A DNA stretch of 43,250 bases from Phycisphaerae bacterium (GCA_011050235.1 DRGC01000083.1:1-43250), one strand, 5' to 3'. Shown: positions 1,675 through 32,072, counted from the stretch's first letter. The notes: generated by a model from the sequence alone, not told the origin. Numbers and translations: made by a program.

Positions 1675-3162
1675 CTAACCTCCATAGAGCCAGCCGAAGA
1701 ACACGGTCACACCCATCAGGAAGACCAGCAAGGGCACAAACCCCCGCTTGGCGCCTGCCTTGCCGTAGGTCTGCCGGGTGAGCTTGAGGCCGTAGTCGGC
1801 GGAGATAAGGAATGCCACGATCAGCACGGCGAACTGCAGCGGCACGAGCCAGGCGGTCGCTACAGGCGTCCACGGAATGCCCGCCGTGCCGAACAGATCC
1901 CATCCCCACGCGAACGGGTCGGAGATCGTGTGCAGCACATAGGACCCATTGGGCAGCAGGAACCCGAGGCTAAAGGCCACCCACGCCCCCAGCCCCATCG
2001 GAATGAGGCTGTAGGATAGATTCACAAAGGCCGCCTTCAACGACGTCTCCTTCACGCCGCTGGCCAGCTTCGACAGCAGCACGAAGACGAAGAAGACGCC
2101 CGGAATAATCAGCAGGTTGAACGCCGCGTGCAGGCCCACGAAGGACAGCCATCCGCTAAGCGTATCGCCCCGGACCCAGTCCTTGATCCACCCCCATCGG
2201 CCCATCATGGCGACATAGAACATCACCGCGATGCCCATCATGATGAAGGCCTTCCACGCCTCATCCAGGCCGCGACGCTCGTTGACCAGCAGGTCCGTCC
2301 CCGGCGGGCGCACGTTCAGGGCCATGTTATCGAACGGGCAGGTCTTGAAGCACTCCATACACATGCCGCAATACGTGTTTCGCTTGAAACTGTGCGGCTC
2401 GAGCAGCCACGGACACCCGTAGCCATTCTTGTTGCCGGTGACGCAGGTCTTCTTCTTGTGCTTGGCGCAGATCGCCGGGTCCTTCGCGCGGACCTCCAAC
2501 ATGGCGGCGTTGGCGTAGAGGCCCTGAAAACCGCTGACCGGGCAGACATACAGGCAGAAGGTGCGCTTTTGGAAGAGCAGCGACATCACGATGCCGATCA
2601 CGATGATGCCGCCCAGCAGATAGAAGGTCGCCAGCGGCTTGACGGTGAAGAACCCGCTGAAGAACGTGGTCGCCAGGAACAGGATGTTCATCACCCACAT
2701 GTTGCTCAGCCGCTTGGGCCACTTCAGATTCAGCCCGTACAGGTTGTTGTTGACGCCGAAGAGCTTCAGGCGCTGCAGCCATTCGCCCAGCGAGGGCAGT
2801 GGACACATCAGACACCACGACCGGCTCATCACCGGCACGAGCAGCAGCATCAGCGCCACCCACCAGAGGATCCAAACGATCATGATGCCGAAGCTGTAGT
2901 TGCCCGACGAGAATCCGCCCACCACGCCGCTGGTCAGAATGATGGCGAAGATGAACATGTTGACCAGGATCAGGGCCATCGGGAACCATCGCTTCTTCAG
3001 CAGCCGGCGCACCAGGGGCAGCGACGCCAGGTCGAACCGCCAGCTCAGGGGGACGACGCCGAAGAGCTTGCCCTCTTGGGCCGAATCATCGGCTGTGGGG
3101 CGGACGCATGGGGGGGCCTGCTCGGACGTGTCAGCCTGTGGGGTGTCGATTTCGTCAGTCAT
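1675..3162 (-). CDS. NosR/NapH-like membrane polyferredoxin
   Basis: A 495-aa polytopic membrane protein. In order: helices at about 60-80 and 92-113, a cytoplasmic-type WCLMCP motif (C117, C120), more helices (~155-195), a second CLYVCP motif (C203, C207), an irregular cysteine group (C232, C240, C250), one canonical 4Fe-4S ferredoxin motif C265-x2-C268-x2-C271-x3-C275-P, and several C-terminal helices. The CxxCP/CxxxCP pairs after transmembrane helices are typical of the NosR, NapH and CcoG group, which pass electrons between the quinone pool and periplasmic reductases. The FMN-binding periplasmic domain of NosR is missing. ATG at 3162 overlaps the preceding stop by 8 nt and has AAGGAAG upstream. 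It is a candidate for the membrane electron gate of this operon, in place of NarI. Confidence 0.75.
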   Translation of the reverse strand: MTDEIDTPQADTSEQAPPCVRPTADDSAQEGKLFGVVPLSWRFDLASLPLVRRLLKKRWFPMALILVNMFIFAIILTSGVVGGFSSGNYSFGIMIVWILWWVALMLLLVPVMSRSWCLMCPLPSLGEWLQRLKLFGVNNNLYGLNLKWPKRLSNMWVMNILFLATTFFSGFFTVKPLATFYLLGGIIVIGIVMSLLFQKRTFCLYVCPVSGFQGLYANAAMLEVRAKDPAICAKHKKKTCVTGNKNGYGCPWLLEPHSFKRNTYCGMCMECFKTCPFDNMALNVRPPGTDLLVNERRGLDEAWKAFIMMGIAVMFYVAMMGRWGWIKDWVRGDTLSGWLSFVGLHAAFNLLIIPGVFFVFVLLSKLASGVKETSLKAAFVNLSYSLIPMGLGAWVAFSLGFLLPNGSYVLHTISDPFAWGWDLFGTAGIPWTPVATAWLVPLQFAVLIVAFLISADYGLKLTRQTYGKAGAKRGFVPLLVFLMGVTVFFGWLYGG

Positions 3163-4465
3163 TTTGAGGCGCTTCCTTTTTCGTTCGCATGACCAGCGCA
3201 GAGACCAGCGCAATCAGCCCTGCCGCCGCCGCGACCCCGACGAATATGTGGAACCGGGTGTTCGGCTCGACGTTCATGTATCCGATCATGTACGGATGAA
3301 ACGGCCCGCACGTCACGGAGCATCGGAACGAGAACCGGCCGGTCTTGTCCGCTCGCAGCGTCCTCGTGGTGGTCTCCCCGGCCTCCACATTCATGTTGAT
3401 GTCGTAGCCGTCGAGGTACAGCCCATGCGCCACGTCCATCGAGACAAGCCGCAACGTCACCAGTTCGTTCTTTTGCAGCGTGATCTCACTGGGCGTGTAT
3501 TCGAACCGCTTGGCTTGAATCTCGATGATCCTGGGCTCTTCCTTTTCCGCCGGCGCGGCGGCGGCCAGCATCGGCAGGTCCATCGTCGCCAGCGACCTAC
3601 CGGCCTGGGCCCCATCCGCCGACTCGGACGATTTGACATCGAGGATCAGCCACTCGCTGAGCGACTTCCGCGACCCGCGGTCGCCCTTGCTGCCGTCCCA
3701 GACGGCGAACACCACGTGCATCTTGCCCGGCTTGACCTGCGCGTCGCGCTCGGCGTCGCCGGTGGTCAACGGTCGCTTGATGATGACGCGCCAGGCCCCG
3801 TCGCTCCACTGACCCCGGCCGGTGAGGGCCGTCGTTTCCTTCGGCGTCAGCGTGCCGGGCCTGGTGGCGATCAGATCCTGACAGGCGCTGGTGATGGGCT
3901 CGTCGGCGGTGGGAACGCCCGCGGTGGGGACATAGAGGTAGTTGGTGTTGGCCGTGAATCGTTCGTCCGCCCCGCCCCAGACGGCTGCATCCAGGTTGGC
4001 CTTCCACTGCCAGATGTTCACCGCCGACTGGAAGCCCATCATGATCGACATCGCCGGCGGTTCGCCACCCAGCGGGAAGCCCACAGCCACGCCATCGGGA
4101 AACTCGTCGATGTCGTGGACTCGGCTGGCGGCGTCATCCTTCCATTCGAACAGGAAGTAGACGTCCTTGCCGTTGTGGAACGACCGCACGTTGACGGCCC
4201 GGACAAGGTGCTGCCCGTGCGGCTTCTGGGTCACCTGGTGCATCATGGGCACGGCCAGGGGCGCCAGCGTCCGCCACACATCGTCGGTGAAGTCGCTGTC
4301 ATCGAGCGAGAGACTCTTGTCGAGTTGGGGCATCGCCAGCACCAGCGGCGGCTCGACCGTCGTGTCCATCTTGCCGCCCCACCGGTTCGTCCAGCCATAC
4401 TGGACCAGCCCGGCAAAAACGACCACGGTCAGGAGGATGATGAGAAACACCACGCCTCGGTTCAT
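3155..4465 (-). CDS. heme b gamma subunit (ethylbenzene dehydrogenase-type) fused to a CuA cupredoxin
   Basis: A 436-aa protein with an N-terminal membrane anchor (~5-22), an EB_dh-type heme b domain (~35-270), a cupredoxin domain (~310-400) and a C-terminal anchor (~406-426). The heme domain has the family segment VNIWQWK (149-155); Met139/142/143 and Lys155 are candidate axial ligands, since EbdC-type subunits use Met and Lys. The cupredoxin has all CuA ligands: His347, C382-x3-C386-x3-H390-x2-M393 in CSVTCGPFHPYMIG. Gamma subunits of type II DMSO-reductase enzymes (EbdC, SerC, ClrC, DdhC) take or give electrons to the FeS subunit; here the next carrier, copper, is covalently attached. The start overlaps the TorD stop (ATGA). 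I know of no classical gamma subunit with this fusion, though NxrC-like proteins should be compared. Confidence 0.8.
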   Translation of the reverse strand: MNRGVVFLIILLTVVVFAGLVQYGWTNRWGGKMDTTVEPPLVLAMPQLDKSLSLDDSDFTDDVWRTLAPLAVPMMHQVTQKPHGQHLVRAVNVRSFHNGKDVYFLFEWKDDAASRVHDIDEFPDGVAVGFPLGGEPPAMSIMMGFQSAVNIWQWKANLDAAVWGGADERFTANTNYLYVPTAGVPTADEPITSACQDLIATRPGTLTPKETTALTGRGQWSDGAWRVIIKRPLTTGDAERDAQVKPGKMHVVFAVWDGSKGDRGSRKSLSEWLILDVKSSESADGAQAGRSLATMDLPMLAAAAPAEKEEPRIIEIQAKRFEYTPSEITLQKNELVTLRLVSMDVAHGLYLDGYDINMNVEAGETTTRTLRADKTGRFSFRCSVTCGPFHPYMIGYMNVEPNTRFHIFVGVAAAAGLIALVSALVMRTKKEAPQND

Positions 4466-9200: not shown

Positions 9201-9757
9201 CACGAGACGCGGACCCATTCATCCTCGCCGCGGCGGAAGTACTTCTTGTCGGGCCGCCCCGTCGTCGCGTCGCGGGGGAACCCCTCCTCGATCCACTGCT
9301 TCCAGCCCTTGCGAACGGTGGGATACTTGACCCGAAACTTGTTGTACACGCGCCGCATGTACGTGTAGCCCTTCAGACAGCCGCGCGGGTGCCACGTCGG
9401 CGTGGGCTTGTTGCCCTGCAGGTCCGTGTAGGTGTCCACAGCGTAGGCCTGCTCGATCCGCACGATCACGCCGTTGCGAACAAACGCCCTCAGCCGACAG
9501 TTGTGCGTGTCGTTGGGCGCGCAGACAAACGTGAACGTGCTGTCGTAGCGGTACTGGTCGCGGTAGAGCGTCTCCCAGTCGCGCGCAGGGTAATGGGCCA
9601 GCGGGTTGTCGACCTCGTCGACCAGCTTGAGCGACCCCAACACCGGCCCGGAAGCGGCTGTGACAAGACCCGCCAGGCCGATCCCAAGGAACCGGCGACG
9701 GCTTAACTGATACGAGGCGTCGTCCTGCGGAAGCGTGCTGTCTCGCTGCTCTACCAT
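6266..9757 (-). CDS. Tat-exported type II DMSO-reductase-family molybdopterin subunit (NarG/NxrA/EbdA-like)
   Basis: A 1163-aa catalytic subunit that should carry Mo-bis-MGD and one [4Fe-4S] (FS0). Residues 19-25 (SRRRFLG) plus a hydrophobic stretch form a twin-arginine signal, so the enzyme is periplasmic. FS0 ligands read C79-x3-D83-x3-C87-x39-C127; aligned to NarG (His-x3-Cys-x3-Cys-x34-Cys) the second position is Asp. D285 in SWDNYAWHTDLPPGH is the candidate Mo ligand, matching the NarG FYDWYADLPP region. Length and the periplasmic form point to the NXR/chlorate/selenate/ethylbenzene dehydrogenase branch rather than cytoplasmic NarG. The physiological substrate cannot be decided from sequence. 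ATG at 9757 was chosen because it gives a clean Tat leader and follows the Rrf2 stop by 22 nt, with AGGA upstream; longer frames run into the regulator. Confidence 0.88.
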   Translation of the reverse strand: MVEQRDSTLPQDDASYQLSRRRFLGIGLAGLVTAASGPVLGSLKLVDEVDNPLAHYPARDWETLYRDQYRYDSTFTFVCAPNDTHNCRLRAFVRNGVIVRIEQAYAVDTYTDLQGNKPTPTWHPRGCLKGYTYMRRVYNKFRVKYPTVRKGWKQWIEEGFPRDATTGRPDKKYFRRGEDEWVRVSWDQISDLVARTLLNIAKSYSGDQGANWLLAQGYPPEMIEPMKDPDGNVAGVRSMKFRGGMALLGITRLTGMYRFSNMMALVDDHIRGTGPEKSLGARSWDNYAWHTDLPPGHAMVHGTQTYDQEFHDFENSDMLVIAGLNLVENKMADPIWWHMAIEQKRKIVVIAPEHSPTVTKSDYWLQVRPGADAALMLGVAGVLIRENLCDTDYVKRFTDYPFLVRSDTLKELTAEELEDATILDPGLKYTYDDGKPVQKDAEKYAVNAVVAVKGGRQLLGVSRNCIGDHLNDELAKQGLSLDDIELDFEGEVQTRSGPVKVKSIFRLYKELTAHYDPETAGEVTGIPADQIRRFARDIAAADSVGFVCGMGLNMYLHNDLINRAYFLVATLTANVGKSGGNVGSYAGNYKAPIFNGLPAYVAEDPFNLTLDENVDGKDVKKRQYAHFESIHFWAHGDSPLIVDTPKEGRVVLTEAGHMPSPSKVVWTNNANQIGNAKWAYDIIKNVLPNHEMHVATDYEWSMNCEYADVVFPVDSWVEFAHRDMTASCTNPFMQVFPKGGIKRLHDTRHDIEVYLEVAKALTRLTGDERFVQHFKFVDEDKVEVYMQRILDGSHAFRGYKIEDIIEQGGSALSMFRTYPRIPGWEQIRESVPFYTKTGRLELYRDEDEWINQGENLIVHREPVEATPYQTNVIVIPSDFDAIRPKDYGVPKDELDGDLRCIFNEKWPWSQVKKSENPLTTKHDLNAVFVTCKTRHRVHSSWSTVDWNVIWCSNYGDPFRLDNRSPWIGEEELDINPEFAKSLGIEDGDYVYLDADPQDRPFRGKKNDGSFFEKMTRLMVRVKYNPSFPRGYLNMKHSIYGATHRSVRAQESNKDGSAHTDTGYIATLRFGSHQSCVRTWLNPTQMTGSLVHKDYFGHNIVQGFTVDTHTPTGAPKESLVKITFAEKGGIGGKGLWGPIESGLTPAHENDDMKRYIAGGFVEER

Positions 9758-22848: not shown

Positions 22849-25353
22849 TCAGCGCCCGACGCCGAGGGAGTCAAATATTGACGGATAGCGCGTCAGTTCG
22901 CGCGGGGCGTCTGGGTCGATGTCGAGGGTCAGTTGCAGCGTCGCCGTCTGCGGGGCTAGGCACTGCGCTTCGTCGCACGCCTGCGTTACCAGGTGCAGTT
23001 GGAGCGTGGCTGGGCCGCTGGCGGCGTCCGGGTTGACGGTCAAAGGGATCAGCAGCTGGATTTGGCCCTCATAGATCTCGACGGTCTCCCCAAGCACCGG
23101 GTCAGCCAGGGGGCGGCTGGCCGGCAGGACAATGTCCCCAGCCGTTACCGCCGCATTGGGTACCAGCGAGATTGTCGTTGGGACAACGAAGTCCACGCCG
23201 GGGTTGGGCCCGTAGATGTGCCATCCGTCGGCGATCTCCAAGACCACCGCTACGTAGAACGTCTGCCCCGCCCTGACCTGCAGCCGCGATGCGAACAGAT
23301 CGACCGTCACCGGGCCCAGGACCTGGCGAGCGTCGGAATCGGCCGGGCCTGACGCCTCGATCACCTCGGCCGCGGATTCCAGATCGACCGCCGCCGCCAG
23401 CAGTAGCGATTCGGCCCCGCGGGGAGACCGCCACATCACCCCCGACAGCGACGCCAGGGCCCGCCGGGCGGCCTGGACGTATTTGTCTTGCCCCGTCAGC
23501 CGACCCAGCCGCAACAGCACCAGCACGGCCACACCGTTACCGGAGGGCGTGTTGCCGCCGCCCATGATATTCTTGGACCGCAGCAGCAAGTCCTCATGGT
23601 CGGCCGTGGCGAAGAAAAACCCCCCGGCCCGCTGGTCCTCGAAGTCGCTCAAAATCGTATCGGCCAGTCGCCGTGCCGCATCGAGCCATCGCCGCTCGCC
23701 GGTCGCCTCGTGGAGCTCCAGCAAGCCCTCCGCCAGGAAGGCGTGGTCGTCCAGATAGCCCGGCAGCTTCGCCTGCCCGGCCCGGTAGGATCGCAGCAGC
23801 CCGCCCTCTTTGGTCATCATGTTATCGAGAATGAACTCCGCCGCCCGCGCGGCCGCCCGGGTATAGCGCGGCTCGTCCAACTGCCCGCCCGCATAGGCCA
23901 GGCCTGCGATCATCAGGCCGTTCCAGCCGGCGAGGACCTTGTCGTCCTTATGCGGATGGCGTCGACGGTTCCGCACAGCCAGCAGCTTGTCCCTCATCGC
24001 CTTCAACCCCGCCTCGGGCTGGGCCGGGCCGGGCAGGTGGACGATGTTGGCCCCGGTCTTGCGACCGGTAGCTTCTTCCTGGAAGTTGCCGCCCTTGCGA
24101 AGGCCATAAGCCTCGGCGAAGCTCTTGCCGTCTTGCTTGCCCAGGACCTCCAGGACCTCGTCGTATCGCCAGACGTAAAACCGCCCTTCTTCGCCGACGG
24201 CCCCGGCGTCGATGGCCGAATGGAACCCGCCGCCCGGGTCGGTCATCTCCCGATCGACCCAGGCGAAAATATCCTCCACAGCCTGGCGGTACCGGCGGTC
24301 GCCGGTCAGCAGGAACCCGTCCGTATAGGCCCGCATCAACTGGGCGTTGTCGTAGAGCATCTTCTCGAAGTGCGGCACGAGCCAATGGTCGTCGGTCGCA
24401 TAGCGATGAAACCCGCCACCGATGTGGTCACGCACGCCACCGGTGGCCATCGCATCGAGCGTACGCGTGATTATCTTCAGCAGCTCGGGGTCCTCGGACC
24501 GGCCGAACTGGTGAACAAGCAGCCGCAGCGGGCCGTGCGGCGGAAACTTCGGCGCCCGGCCGAACCCCCCGTTGGTCGCATCGAAGGCCTGTTGCAGGGA
24601 GGCAACGGCCTGGTCGAGCAGATCCTGGTTGACGGGCAGACCAACCTCGACGCCCGCGCCGGACCCGACCTGCCGGATGGCCTCGGCTAATTGATCGGCC
24701 CGCTGTTCGACCTCCGCACGGCGGGTCCTCCACATGTCCGCCAATTGCGTCAGCAGGTCGATGAACTGCTCTCGGGGGTAATAGGTCCCCGCCATCCATG
24801 GCCGCCCGTCGGGCGTCAGCCAGAGCGAGTTCGGCCAGCCGCCGCGACGGGTAATCAACTGAGTCGCGATCATGTATTGTTCGTCGATGTCGGGGCGTTC
24901 TTCGCGGTCGACCTTGATGGCGATGAAATACTTGTTGAGGATGTCGGCCACCTCCTGCCGCTCGAAGCATTCCCGCTCCATGACGTGGCACCAGTAGCAG
25001 GTCGAATACCCGATGGACAGGAAGATGGGTTTGTCTTCCCGCTTGGCCTGGGCGAGGGCCTCGGGGCCCCACGCGTACCAGTTCACCGGGTTGTGGGCGT
25101 GCTGGAGAAGGTACGGGCTGGTCTCGTGGATCAACCGATTGGTCGGTCGCCCGTCATGGGAGTCGCCTTGTGGTTGCGTGGCCATGTGACCGGCCTCCAC
25201 AGCATCGTAGGGGGTTGGCTCGCCGCCGCGGCGATAGATCTGAACGTACAGCAGAATCGCCACCGCCAGGATAAACAGACACATCGCCGCGATGGCGGCC
25301 CTGCGCTGTTTCCGGGACGTTCTGGACCTGACTGCATTCATGGCTGGACCCAT
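22849..25353 (-). CDS. YyaL/DUF255 thioredoxin-domain protein fused to DsbD-alpha-like domain
   Basis: An 834-aa protein anchored by one N-terminal helix (~20-38). Residues ~70-190 are the DUF255 thioredoxin-like domain of the YyaL/SSP411 family, with redox motif C119-Y-W-C122-H in [10 protein letters not shown]. Residues ~230-670 form the (alpha/alpha)6-barrel part of that family. Residues ~685-815 match the N-terminal (alpha) domain of DsbD: immunoglobulin-like strands (WHIYGPNPG) and a cysteine pair C793-x4-C798 in [13 protein letters not shown]. The fusion puts a thioredoxin-like and a DsbD-type dithiol exchanger in one periplasmic polypeptide. It sits downstream of the metal RND operon, 100 nt from cusA, suggesting repair of metal-oxidised thiols. 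Start could be 25353 or 25341; no clear ribosome site decides. Confidence 0.85.
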
Positions 25354-25453
25354 CTGCCCCGCCGAGCCGTTCAGTTGGACATTCCCTGCATTACATCTTA
25401 CGAGCGCCCGGCAAGAATTGCCCAGCTCGGGCCCACAGAGATTTCCATCCGTG

Positions 25454-29660
<4,207 letters not shown>

Positions 29661-29680
<20 letters not shown>

Positions 29681-32072
29681 GCTCAGAGCCTTTCTCGCCG
29701 GGCTCGGACTGAGCCTGAATCACGTTCACCACGTTGCCGCACTGCGGCATGGCGGCCCCGAAATACGGATTGCGCACGCTCTCTTCCGGTTGCAGCCATC
29801 GCGCGCCTCGACTGTTGAAGGCCATCGGGCATCGCATTTCGAACAGGGGGCCCTCCCCCCCCGGGCCGAACCGATTCGCAATGGCCGACATCTGCTCGGA
29901 CAGAAGCGAAAAGGCCAGTCGCTGGGTGTCGATCTCCGTCGCCTCAGCCGCATCGGACAGAATCTTTTCCAGACCGCTTGCCAGGTCCATCCACGCCGTG
30001 TGGTCGTCGCCAGCCAGCAGGCCCATGTCGACCCCGGCCAGGGCCTGCTGGACCTTGACCGATTTCGTCGAGACCTGGTCGGCGGCCAACGCCCGCTGCA
30101 ACTCGAAGTACGCATCGAACAAGCTGCCCAATTGCTGCCGAAACTCCGGGGGAACCGGCGGGCGCGACGAAGCAAACGGGTGTTCGCCATGGAGGCCGAA
30201 AGTCTTCTTCAACAAGGCAATATTGGTCTCGAGCGACTTGGCTACGCGCTGGAGTTCCTTGGGCATCTTGGCCTCGCTACCTTCGACCGCGTCGTTTCCC
30301 AGACGCATGGCGTATTCGTTCCACATCATCCGCTGGTGATCGGTCAGATCGGTCAGATCGGCCGTATCGATGGAGCGGACCGTATCGCCCAGCGCCTCGA
30401 AGGCCCGCCGCGATGCGGCGAGGTCCTCTTCGGCTATGGCGTCATGGACGGCCTCCGCGGCGCTCAGGACGGCTTGCACCCGATGCAGGAACATCGCCGG
30501 CAGCTCGCCCTTGGCGTCCGGGCCCTTGGCCGTCTTCTTCTTCGGGCCGTGGTCGTGCCCGCCGGCGGCGCCGCCCTCAGGTGACATCATGGACGGTTTA
30601 GCCAGAATCTGAAGGGCGCTGTCGATCTTGAAATTGCCCCGACGCACCACGCGGTCGCCTTCGGCGAGGCCGCTTCGAACGATGTAGTAATCGCCCGCCC
30701 GCGGGCCCAGCAGGATCTCGCGCCCCACGAAGGTCGGCTCTTCGGCGTCGGGCTTTTCCACGTATACGATGGCGCGCGTGCCGGTCCGCAGGACGGCGGT
30801 CGCTAGGATCACCAGAGGCTTATCTGTCTTGTCCGGGTCGATCCCCACGTAGCCGAGGGATTCCGTCCGTTCCAGCGGCATTTCACAGATGTCGCACACC
30901 CCCGGGCCTTCCTTGACGATCTCCGGATGCATGCGACACATCCATTTGCCCGCCAGATGGGGATCCATGACCTTCCCGCCGGCGGCCACTTGGGCGCGGA
31001 CAATCGCTTTGACGAACATACCGGGCTTGAGCTTGCCGGCGGCGTTGGGGGCGTTGACGCGGACCTTCACCGTGCGGGTGCCTGGCGTCAGGATCGGATC
31101 GATAAAAGCGATCGTTCCGGTGAACGTCTCACCGGGATGCGAGATGGTGGTGAACTCGACGGTCTGGCCGTATCGCACCCATATCAGGTCCGACTCGTAG
31201 GCGTCGAGCTTCACCCACACCTGCGACAGGTCGGCGAGCGTGTAGATGCGCGAGCCGGTGCTGACATACATGCCCTCCTGGGCGTTCTTGTGGATAACGA
31301 TCCCGGCCACCGGCGAATAGATTGTTAGATGATCTTCAGCCTGACCGGTCGCTTCGAGCGTCTCGATCTGCTCAGGCGCCAGGCCCAGCAGGCGGAGTTT
31401 CTCACGGGAGGCGACAACGGTCGCCTCGCTCATCTCGCGGACGATGCCCACGTCGCTGCGGACCAGCGCCTCGACCGCCTCCCGCGCCTGAAGCAATTCC
31501 TCCTGAGCGCTGAGCAGTTCGGGGCTGTAGATGTAGACCATGTGGTCGCCCTTTTGGACCGGGACGCCCGTGTAGTCCACATAGAGCTTGTCCAGCCGGC
31601 CGGGCACCCACGCGGTGATATACGCCAGGCGCGTCTCGTCGTAGTCGATCTCGCCCACCATGCGGATCTCGGCCTGGACGAACTTCCGCTCGACAGCGAC
31701 CGTCTCGATATCCATCAGGGCCTTGCCGGCCTCGCTGACCGAAAACTCCCGCAACCCACCGGCCTTTGTTGGCTTGACGGGAATCAGCTTCATGCCGCAC
31801 TTTGGACACAAGCCCGGCTCTAATCGGCGGACCTCCGGATGCATCGAACAGGTCCACTCCTGGATTGGGGCTTCGTCCGCCTCGTCCGCTTCGCCCGGTT
31901 CGCTCGGCTGCGTCGATGCGACCACCGGTGTCTCCGCCTTGCCGACATCTTCGGAGAAGATCGCGTGCAGCAGGATGCCAATGCCGATGCCCACGACAAG
32001 GACGACCACCAGCCCCGCCTGTTGGCCTATTGCGCGAGCGTATCGCCAGATTACGTTCTGCTGCTCAGCCAT
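29661..32072 (-). CDS. cusB: CusB-type RND adaptor with two HMBD headpieces and DUF3347
   Basis: An 803-aa membrane-fusion protein. Order: N-terminal anchor (~20-37); heavy-metal-binding domain 1 (72-100: TCSMHPE, then CPKCGMKL; C75, H78, C89, C92); HlyD-like barrel-sandwich, hairpin and beta-barrel (~105-365); a second HMBD inserted at ~375-405 (CRMHPE, CDICEMPL); membrane-proximal domain (~410-500); linker rich in H/D; and a C-terminal DUF3347 (~525-795) with a MRCPMAF motif. DUF3347 and HMBD are known copper/silver ligand domains of Cus-like systems. It links CusA to the TolC-type lipoprotein encoded upstream in the same operon. Two HMBDs in one adaptor is more than the usual single one. 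Confidence 0.9.

Follow-up and report, generated by a model that had tools for sequence, protein, structure and literature searches.

A CuA domain fused to the haem b subunit of a nitrite oxidoreductase-type operon points to a possible wiring not previously reported for this enzyme family in Planctomycetota

The gamma subunit of a nitrite oxidoreductase (NXR)-type operon from an uncultured bacterium of the class Phycisphaerae appears to carry a CuA relay on the same polypeptide as its haem b domain, an assignment well supported by the predicted ligands, their conservation and the modelled fold. The protein is encoded in a stretch of 43,250 nucleotides (DRGC01000083.1:1-43250, GCA_011050235.1), referred to here as the window. 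We propose, with a probability of about 0.52, that this CuA links a membrane polyferredoxin to the haem b of the gamma subunit, electrons from quinol most likely reducing nitrate. The fusion, termed gamma-CuA below, would be anchored in the membrane as the gamma subunit of a periplasmic molybdenum enzyme of the NXR type. Its CuA would hold the place of the diheme cytochrome c fused to the gamma subunit in most relatives and would carry electrons between haem b and the NapH/NosR-like polyferredoxin, with a second small CuA protein as candidate partner or shuttle. Net flow would run from quinol through the polyferredoxin, one or both CuA centres, haem b and the iron–sulfur clusters to molybdenum, where nitrate would be reduced to nitrite. 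We infer the electron order, the direction and the substrate; judged from sequence, the quinol activity of the polyferredoxin is putative and the nitrate/nitrite activity of the enzyme predicted. The operon is read entirely from the minus strand in the order alpha, beta, TorD, gamma-CuA, polyferredoxin, second small CuA protein, and has the following features (aa, residues of gamma-CuA unless stated otherwise):

9976–6266, minus strand: alpha subunit, NxrA-like molybdopterin enzyme (full-length match to Kuenenia NxrA)
6263–5139, minus strand: beta subunit, NxrB-like iron–sulfur protein (full-length match to Kuenenia NxrB)
5121–4462, minus strand: TorD/NarJ-type assembly chaperone, delta (Pfam, NCBIfam)
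4465–3155, minus strand: gamma-CuA fusion (NxrC/EB_dh haem b subunit plus CuA cupredoxin), 436 aa, ATG start
4456–4400, minus strand: N-terminal membrane helix or uncleaved signal, aa 4–22 (hydropathy; AF2 helix 3–28)
4285–3662, minus strand: EB_dh haem b domain, aa 61–268 (PF09459; fold match 2ivf_C)
4042–4040, minus strand: M142, predicted axial haem ligand (alignment; PMC8387239)
3667–3665, minus strand: K267, predicted axial haem ligand (alignment; PMC8387239)
3640–3539, minus strand: linker, aa 276–309, predicted disordered (AF2 model, linker comparison)
3538–3260, minus strand: CuA cupredoxin domain, aa 310–402 (profile, PDB alignment, fold match)
3427–3425, minus strand: H347, predicted CuA ligand (gap-free alignment to solved CuA domains; invariant)
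3322–3287, minus strand: CuA ligand loop C382-x3-C386-x3-H390-x2-M393, CSVTCGPFHPYM (alignment, conservation)
3247–3191, minus strand: C-terminal membrane helix, aa 407–425 (hydropathy, AF2 model)
3213–1675, minus strand: NapH/NosR-like membrane polyferredoxin, the likelier start being an ATG at about 3162 (Pfam, NCBIfam, hydropathy)
1685–1278, minus strand: second small membrane-anchored CuA-type cupredoxin with H77, C113, C117, H121 and M124 (Pfam, NCBIfam, alignment)

A preliminary description of this DNA had claimed that the protein joins an EB_dh haem b domain to a cupredoxin with a full CuA ligand set and is anchored by a helix at each end, and both statements are borne out. The Pfam model PF09459 matches residues 61–268 well above its cut-off (E 4.4e-29; 102.6 bits against 33.3), with the VNIWQWK motif falling inside the match; the N-terminal half finds Kuenenia NxrC and EbdC in the PDB, and M142 and K267 align with Met155 and Lys305, the axial haem ligands of Kuenenia NxrC (PMC8387239). 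Among NCBIfam models the haem b subunit of type II DMSO reductases ranks first and the CuA regions of NosZ and CoxB follow, yet the best model, TIGR03477, stays below its cut-off (114.6 versus 169.85 bits). The terminal helices are predicted at residues 4–22 and 407–425 by hydropathy and at 3–28 and 403–430 in an AF2 model. This model, built on a six-sequence alignment, has a mean pLDDT of 54, low in the EB_dh part and fair to good in the cupredoxin; residues 43–277, in the low-pLDDT region, match the fold of 2ivf_C (Z 10.8). The reading frame overlaps the preceding chaperone gene by four bases. Sequencing or assembly error as the source of the fusion is ruled out, since the same fusion occurs in six other loci.

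The copper domain is recognized by the Pfam model Cupredoxin_1 at residues 299–383 (E 8.9e-9; 35.7 bits, cut-off 27). The proposed pairing of EB_dh with a cupredoxin of the COX2 type was recovered in part: EB_dh and Cupredoxin_1 pass, but the Pfam COX2 model falls short of its own gathering score (18.2 versus 22 bits). Residues 314–398 align gap-free with solved CuA domains, natural and engineered (best E 1.6e-9, PDB), which places H347, C382, C386, H390 and M393 on the five side-chain ligands of CuA. The set H, C, C, H, M stands at the right spacing, and all five residues, both cysteines included, are invariant among the aligned homologous CuA domains. In the AF2 model, residues 308–402 resemble domains of N2O reductase, COX2 and nitrosocyanin (Z about 11), and CupA is also among the fold matches. 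Nitrosocyanin lacks the second cysteine.

Copper loading of the domain is what we infer from these ligands, and a profile search found no SCO1/SenC homologue above cut-off in the genomes with CuA, so that copper would have to be inserted in some other way. The same absence could speak for a cupredoxin without a working CuA electron-transfer site, which would bind one copper or serve in copper sensing, storage or assembly, as could the resemblance to nitrosocyanin and CupA, the sub-threshold COX2 score and a Cus-like copper efflux locus within the window. We regard such a role as very improbable, given the invariance of all five ligands, the missing second cysteine of nitrosocyanin, the gap-free alignment to engineered and natural CuA domains, and the cytochrome c that occupies the same role in relatives.

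The expectation that a fused CuA relay would fix the electron route after haem b holds insofar as CuA is attached. The linker between the two domains, however, varies from 34 to 58 residues across the fusions, is weakly conserved and is predicted to be disordered in the AF2 model, so that CuA seems to hang on a tether, with the two helices as further anchors, and not to be held in a rigid position, and its contact with haem b may be transient. The route is better fixed by the polyferredoxin, which co-occurs strictly with CuA, and by the second CuA protein in the operon, which is always present as well. Parts of the planctomycete linkers, FSFVSTANA for example, resemble degenerate signal peptides; these are possible remnants of the signal peptide of an ancestral separate CuA gene.

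The operon to which gamma-CuA belongs is, on sequence evidence, that of a predicted Tat-exported NXR-type enzyme, with gamma-CuA as its gamma subunit. The alpha subunit matches Kuenenia NxrA over its full length with 1070 bits, followed in the PDB by the perchlorate reductase PcrA with 168 and by NarG with about 130; beta, too, is by a wide margin closest to its Kuenenia counterpart, NxrB. It has the Mo-ligand Asp365 and, in the FS0 region, Asn155/Asp156, matching the active-site/FS0 Asn–Asp pair of Kuenenia (PMC8387239). A Tat motif, SRRRFL, spotted by eye at residue 92 of alpha in SRRRFLGIGLAG, suggests that the true start of this subunit lies near 9757. The polyferredoxin has many hydrophobic segments and 11 cysteines invariant among 20 homologues; Fer4_5 scores just above its Pfam cut-off, similarity to NapH is weak and the cut-off is not reached (TIGR02163, 19 versus 213 bits, NCBIfam), no FMN-domain family of Pfam matches, and its AF2 model has a mean pLDDT of 34. 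The second small cupredoxin, too, has a full CuA ligand set.

Could the enzyme act on something other than nitrate or nitrite? At 12 of 151 near-invariant columns the alpha subunit has a different residue (H408 to I, Y427 to H, R975 to F, Q1137 to I and eight others), more often than any other complete sequence examined, and its substrate may therefore differ. It is conceivable, if unlikely, that the substrate is another oxyanion or a reduced compound and that CuA and polyferredoxin are a general adaptor plugged onto a catalytic subunit. The history of the window alpha, which differs from that of the other CuA-linked alphas, would fit this, as would the modules of this type that adjoin multihaem cytochromes where there is no NXR. 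What weighs against another substrate is that alpha keeps three residues of NxrA, the Asp that binds Mo, the Asn of the active site and the Asp of FS0 (PMC8387239), and that NxrA is by far the best PDB match.

How common is this arrangement? About 120 stretches around NxrA-like genes, sampled from 397 genomes of the class and 294 of the phylum, were scanned with profiles built for this analysis, and counts refer to the 100 loci with a near-complete alpha. In 61 of them a diheme cytochrome c is joined to gamma, and in 25 EB_dh stands without either carrier (including one, L104, cut by the contig end, which may be a fusion); the gamma-CuA fusion occurs in seven and a split CuA in two, and five have no gamma, among them L130 of genome G263, where the cluster is spread across different contigs. 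The fusions amount to seven loci in six Planctomycetota genomes. The belief that classical gamma subunits stop after the haem domain thus does not survive as a general rule, given the 61 diheme fusions and the alternative NxrC of Nitrospira (PMC6606698).

The polyferredoxin is present in 9/9 CuA loci and in 0/91 other NxrA-like loci (Fisher 5e-13, uncorrected for kinship). For some of the CuA loci it was the polyferredoxin that first led to them, but alpha-based searches independently gave the same genomes; among the 397 genomes sampled from the class, gamma-CuA occurs in exactly those six whose polyferredoxin has at least 68% identity. CuA and gamma are separate genes in three other genomes. 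Two of these loci come from outside the phylum of the window: L006, on a contig assigned to Undinarchaeales by binning, and L007, from Omnitrophota. Their cluster is the same except that CuA is separate from a gamma of 281 aa; in L006 this CuA is in frame with the polyferredoxin. In the third genome, G263, from the phylum of the window, a separate CuA gene adjoins the polyferredoxin. Fusion of CuA to gamma in planctomycetes and to polyferredoxin in L006 argues that CuA physically bridges both.

The alpha of L006 (JASMDC010000004.1) is 73–75% identical to alphas of Omnitrophota and planctomycetes, and mis-binning or recent transfer of this contig is possible. Genes of the siroheme route to haem b directly follow the CuA-type cluster in L006 (13021–16341) and L007 (13271–14703), with AhbA and AhbB in both and AhbC/AhbD-like genes in L006; they perhaps supply haem for gamma. 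Near the cluster in L006 (16436–17883) lie a second gamma gene and then a protein of thioredoxin fold, SCO-like as read from its sequence, which has no NCBIfam match at E 1e-4.

The direction of electron flow is the part of the argument most dependent on context. NXR can run both ways (PMC8387239), so the case for one direction rests on the gene content of incomplete metagenome-assembled genomes (MAGs). The genome of the window is a 4.0-Mb assembly in 98 contigs, 95% complete, in which gamma-CuA is the only EB_dh protein found. It contains no match to PF00115 (COX1), subunit I of cytochrome bd is missing too, and neither NosZ nor NrfA reaches the cut-off; weak bd-like matches occur in two of the other CuA genomes, G470 and G566. 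CuA as part of an oxidase is ruled out by the missing COX1, and as part of NosZ because the only matches to NosZ models in this genome are the CuA domains themselves. Haem–copper oxidase subunit I was found in 0/7 CuA genomes (G000, that of the window, and G357, G371, G470, G545, G566 and G263, all MAGs) and in 25/25 comparison genomes with other gamma types (Fisher 3e-7). One such absence proves little, seven of seven are more telling, and CuA in a genome without an oxidase is unusual. Elsewhere, the genome of the window encodes a multihaem cytochrome of 533 aa (L177, 121–1722, contig C42) that begins like NapC/NrfH and has a short match to the NrfA family below cut-off.

The membrane iron–sulfur protein NosR is the proposed electron donor to N2O reductase (NosZ), whose electron-transfer site is CuA (PMC7660919). 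This analogy and the missing oxidases make flow from quinol to nitrate the most likely use of the system. The opposite course, in which the enzyme oxidizes nitrite and passes electrons from haem b to CuA and the small CuA protein and from there either to a different acceptor or, by way of the polyferredoxin, to reverse electron transport, seems to us improbable. In its favour, alpha and beta are of NXR type, anammox NXR oxidizes nitrite without oxygen (PMC8387239), and NxrA-carrying Planctomycetota dominate the nxrA community of the anoxic zone (PMC10359470). What tells against it is the lack of haem–copper oxidase in all seven CuA genomes and of cytochrome bd in that of the window, as well as the presence of the cytochrome c-type gammas, suited to a c-type chain, in the oxidase-bearing genomes. 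The potential of CuA is about +250 mV, so that cofactors no higher than this could hand electrons to it, and this would suit nitrite oxidation.

If electrons do run from quinol to nitrate, CuA would have a use beyond oxidases and N2O reductase. More tentatively, we suggest that CuA is the covalently attached point at which electrons enter an NXR-type molybdenum nitrate reductase, the polyferredoxin supplying them from quinol, in planctomycetes that lost or never had haem–copper oxidases, and that gamma-CuA, polyferredoxin and second CuA form a portable module combined with two NxrAB lineages.

The phylogenies bear on the history of this combination. The window falls inside the planctomycete fusion clade in the polyferredoxin tree (100/98), and all CuA-type gammas, that of the window included, group together in the EB_dh tree (100). 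In the alpha and beta trees, by contrast, the window groups with the diheme-cytochrome lineage (100 and 99). Placement of its alpha in the CuA-alpha clade is rejected by the AU test under two models, p-AU for all CuA-linked alphas held together being 1.7e-102 (LG+G4) and 0.0007 (LG+C20); some caution is due, as the alpha test was framed after the tree was seen and the window alpha is a long branch. Holding the CuA-linked betas together is likewise rejected (p-AU 0.002, LG+C20). Identity to the fusion clade is 71–77% for the polyferredoxin versus 46–47% for alpha, the alphas of that clade being 60–93% identical to one another. With that caution, the operon is, as its sequences indicate, a mosaic whose alpha and beta have a history different from that of gamma-CuA and the polyferredoxin: either alpha and beta were exchanged for others, or the operon took up the gamma-CuA/polyferredoxin module.

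How does the protein compare with known systems? The alternative NxrC of Nitrospira (alt_NxrC_2), highly expressed and put forward as the link between NXR and the membrane chain, combines a diheme cytochrome c with EB_dh (PMC6606698), and the Brocadiaceae-type loci examined have the same form. Like gamma-CuA, alt_NxrC_2 and its anammox counterpart are EB_dh gamma subunits of NXR with an electron-carrier domain and a membrane helix, and a diheme cytochrome c is a natural next carrier after haem b; gamma-CuA differs in having a CuA cupredoxin at its C terminus where they have a diheme cytochrome c at the N terminus, in its helix at either end and in its linked polyferredoxin. Since diheme-fused gammas are common and an alternative NxrC has been described, the novelty lies in the copper centre and not in fusion as such. 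We found no description of an EB_dh–CuA fusion in NXR or type II DMSO reductases in the literature searched, which included few subscription journals, and this suggests an unreported wiring of the NXR enzyme family.

The NXR-ABC complex of Kuenenia stuttgartiensis (7b04; NxrC kustd1704) has homologous alpha, beta and gamma subunits and shares the haem Met/Lys, the Mo Asp and the FS0 Asp, but its NxrC stops after the haem domain, and electrons 'cannot travel further' through the complex beyond haem b (PMC8387239). With the next carrier covalently attached and its partner genes known, the route beyond haem b becomes testable. A profile scan detected neither a CuA domain nor the polyferredoxin in the Brocadiaceae-type loci (L073–L075, L126), and the gene set conserved among NXR clusters of Kuenenia, Nitrospira and Nitrospina includes two cupredoxin-like proteins (PMC3578206). 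EbdC, the gamma subunit of ethylbenzene dehydrogenase (2ivf_C), shares the EB_dh fold and haem b but, unlike gamma-CuA, is soluble and consists of the haem domain alone. Subunit II of cytochrome c oxidase shares with gamma-CuA a CuA cupredoxin and its five side-chain ligands, whereas in gamma-CuA the domain follows EB_dh rather than a helical hairpin and the genome has no subunit I. NosZ and NosR offer a parallel in layout, with a CuA entry site and a membrane iron–sulfur protein as proposed donor (PMC7660919); here, however, electrons would reach a Mo cofactor through haem b and Fe–S clusters, not CuZ, and the polyferredoxin matches no FMN-domain family and is at best distant kin of NosR.

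NXR-like genes in non-anammox Planctomycetota are already known, and no direction could be given to them there (PMC10732223). Anoxic waters are rich in NxrA genes from planctomycetes, and the usual practice is to count these towards nitrite oxidation (PMC10359470). Should the CuA-linked forms prove to be nitrate reductases, the architecture of gamma would be an aid in telling direction in metagenomes.

A related module of CuA protein, polyferredoxin and second CuA is found without NXR in six further stretches (L064–L069), and looks like a general electron-transfer module. It adjoins a 12-haem cytochrome in the genome of the window (L067, 5.8–11.2 kb, at about 83–88 kb of contig C73) and likewise in L069; the second CuA is fused to a diheme cytochrome c in L064–L066 and L068. 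Downstream of the small CuA protein, L058 (5161–8616) and L062 (4820–8296) keep the order of an FtsX-type ABC transporter and a PQQ-like propeller protein, possibly a metal-handling unit. The copper efflux and thiol locus of the window (22849–32072, minus strand) lies about 13–22 kb from the gamma-CuA operon and encodes a CusA-like RND pump, a CusB-like adaptor with a heavy-metal-binding domain and a DsbH/DsbD-like thioredoxin protein.
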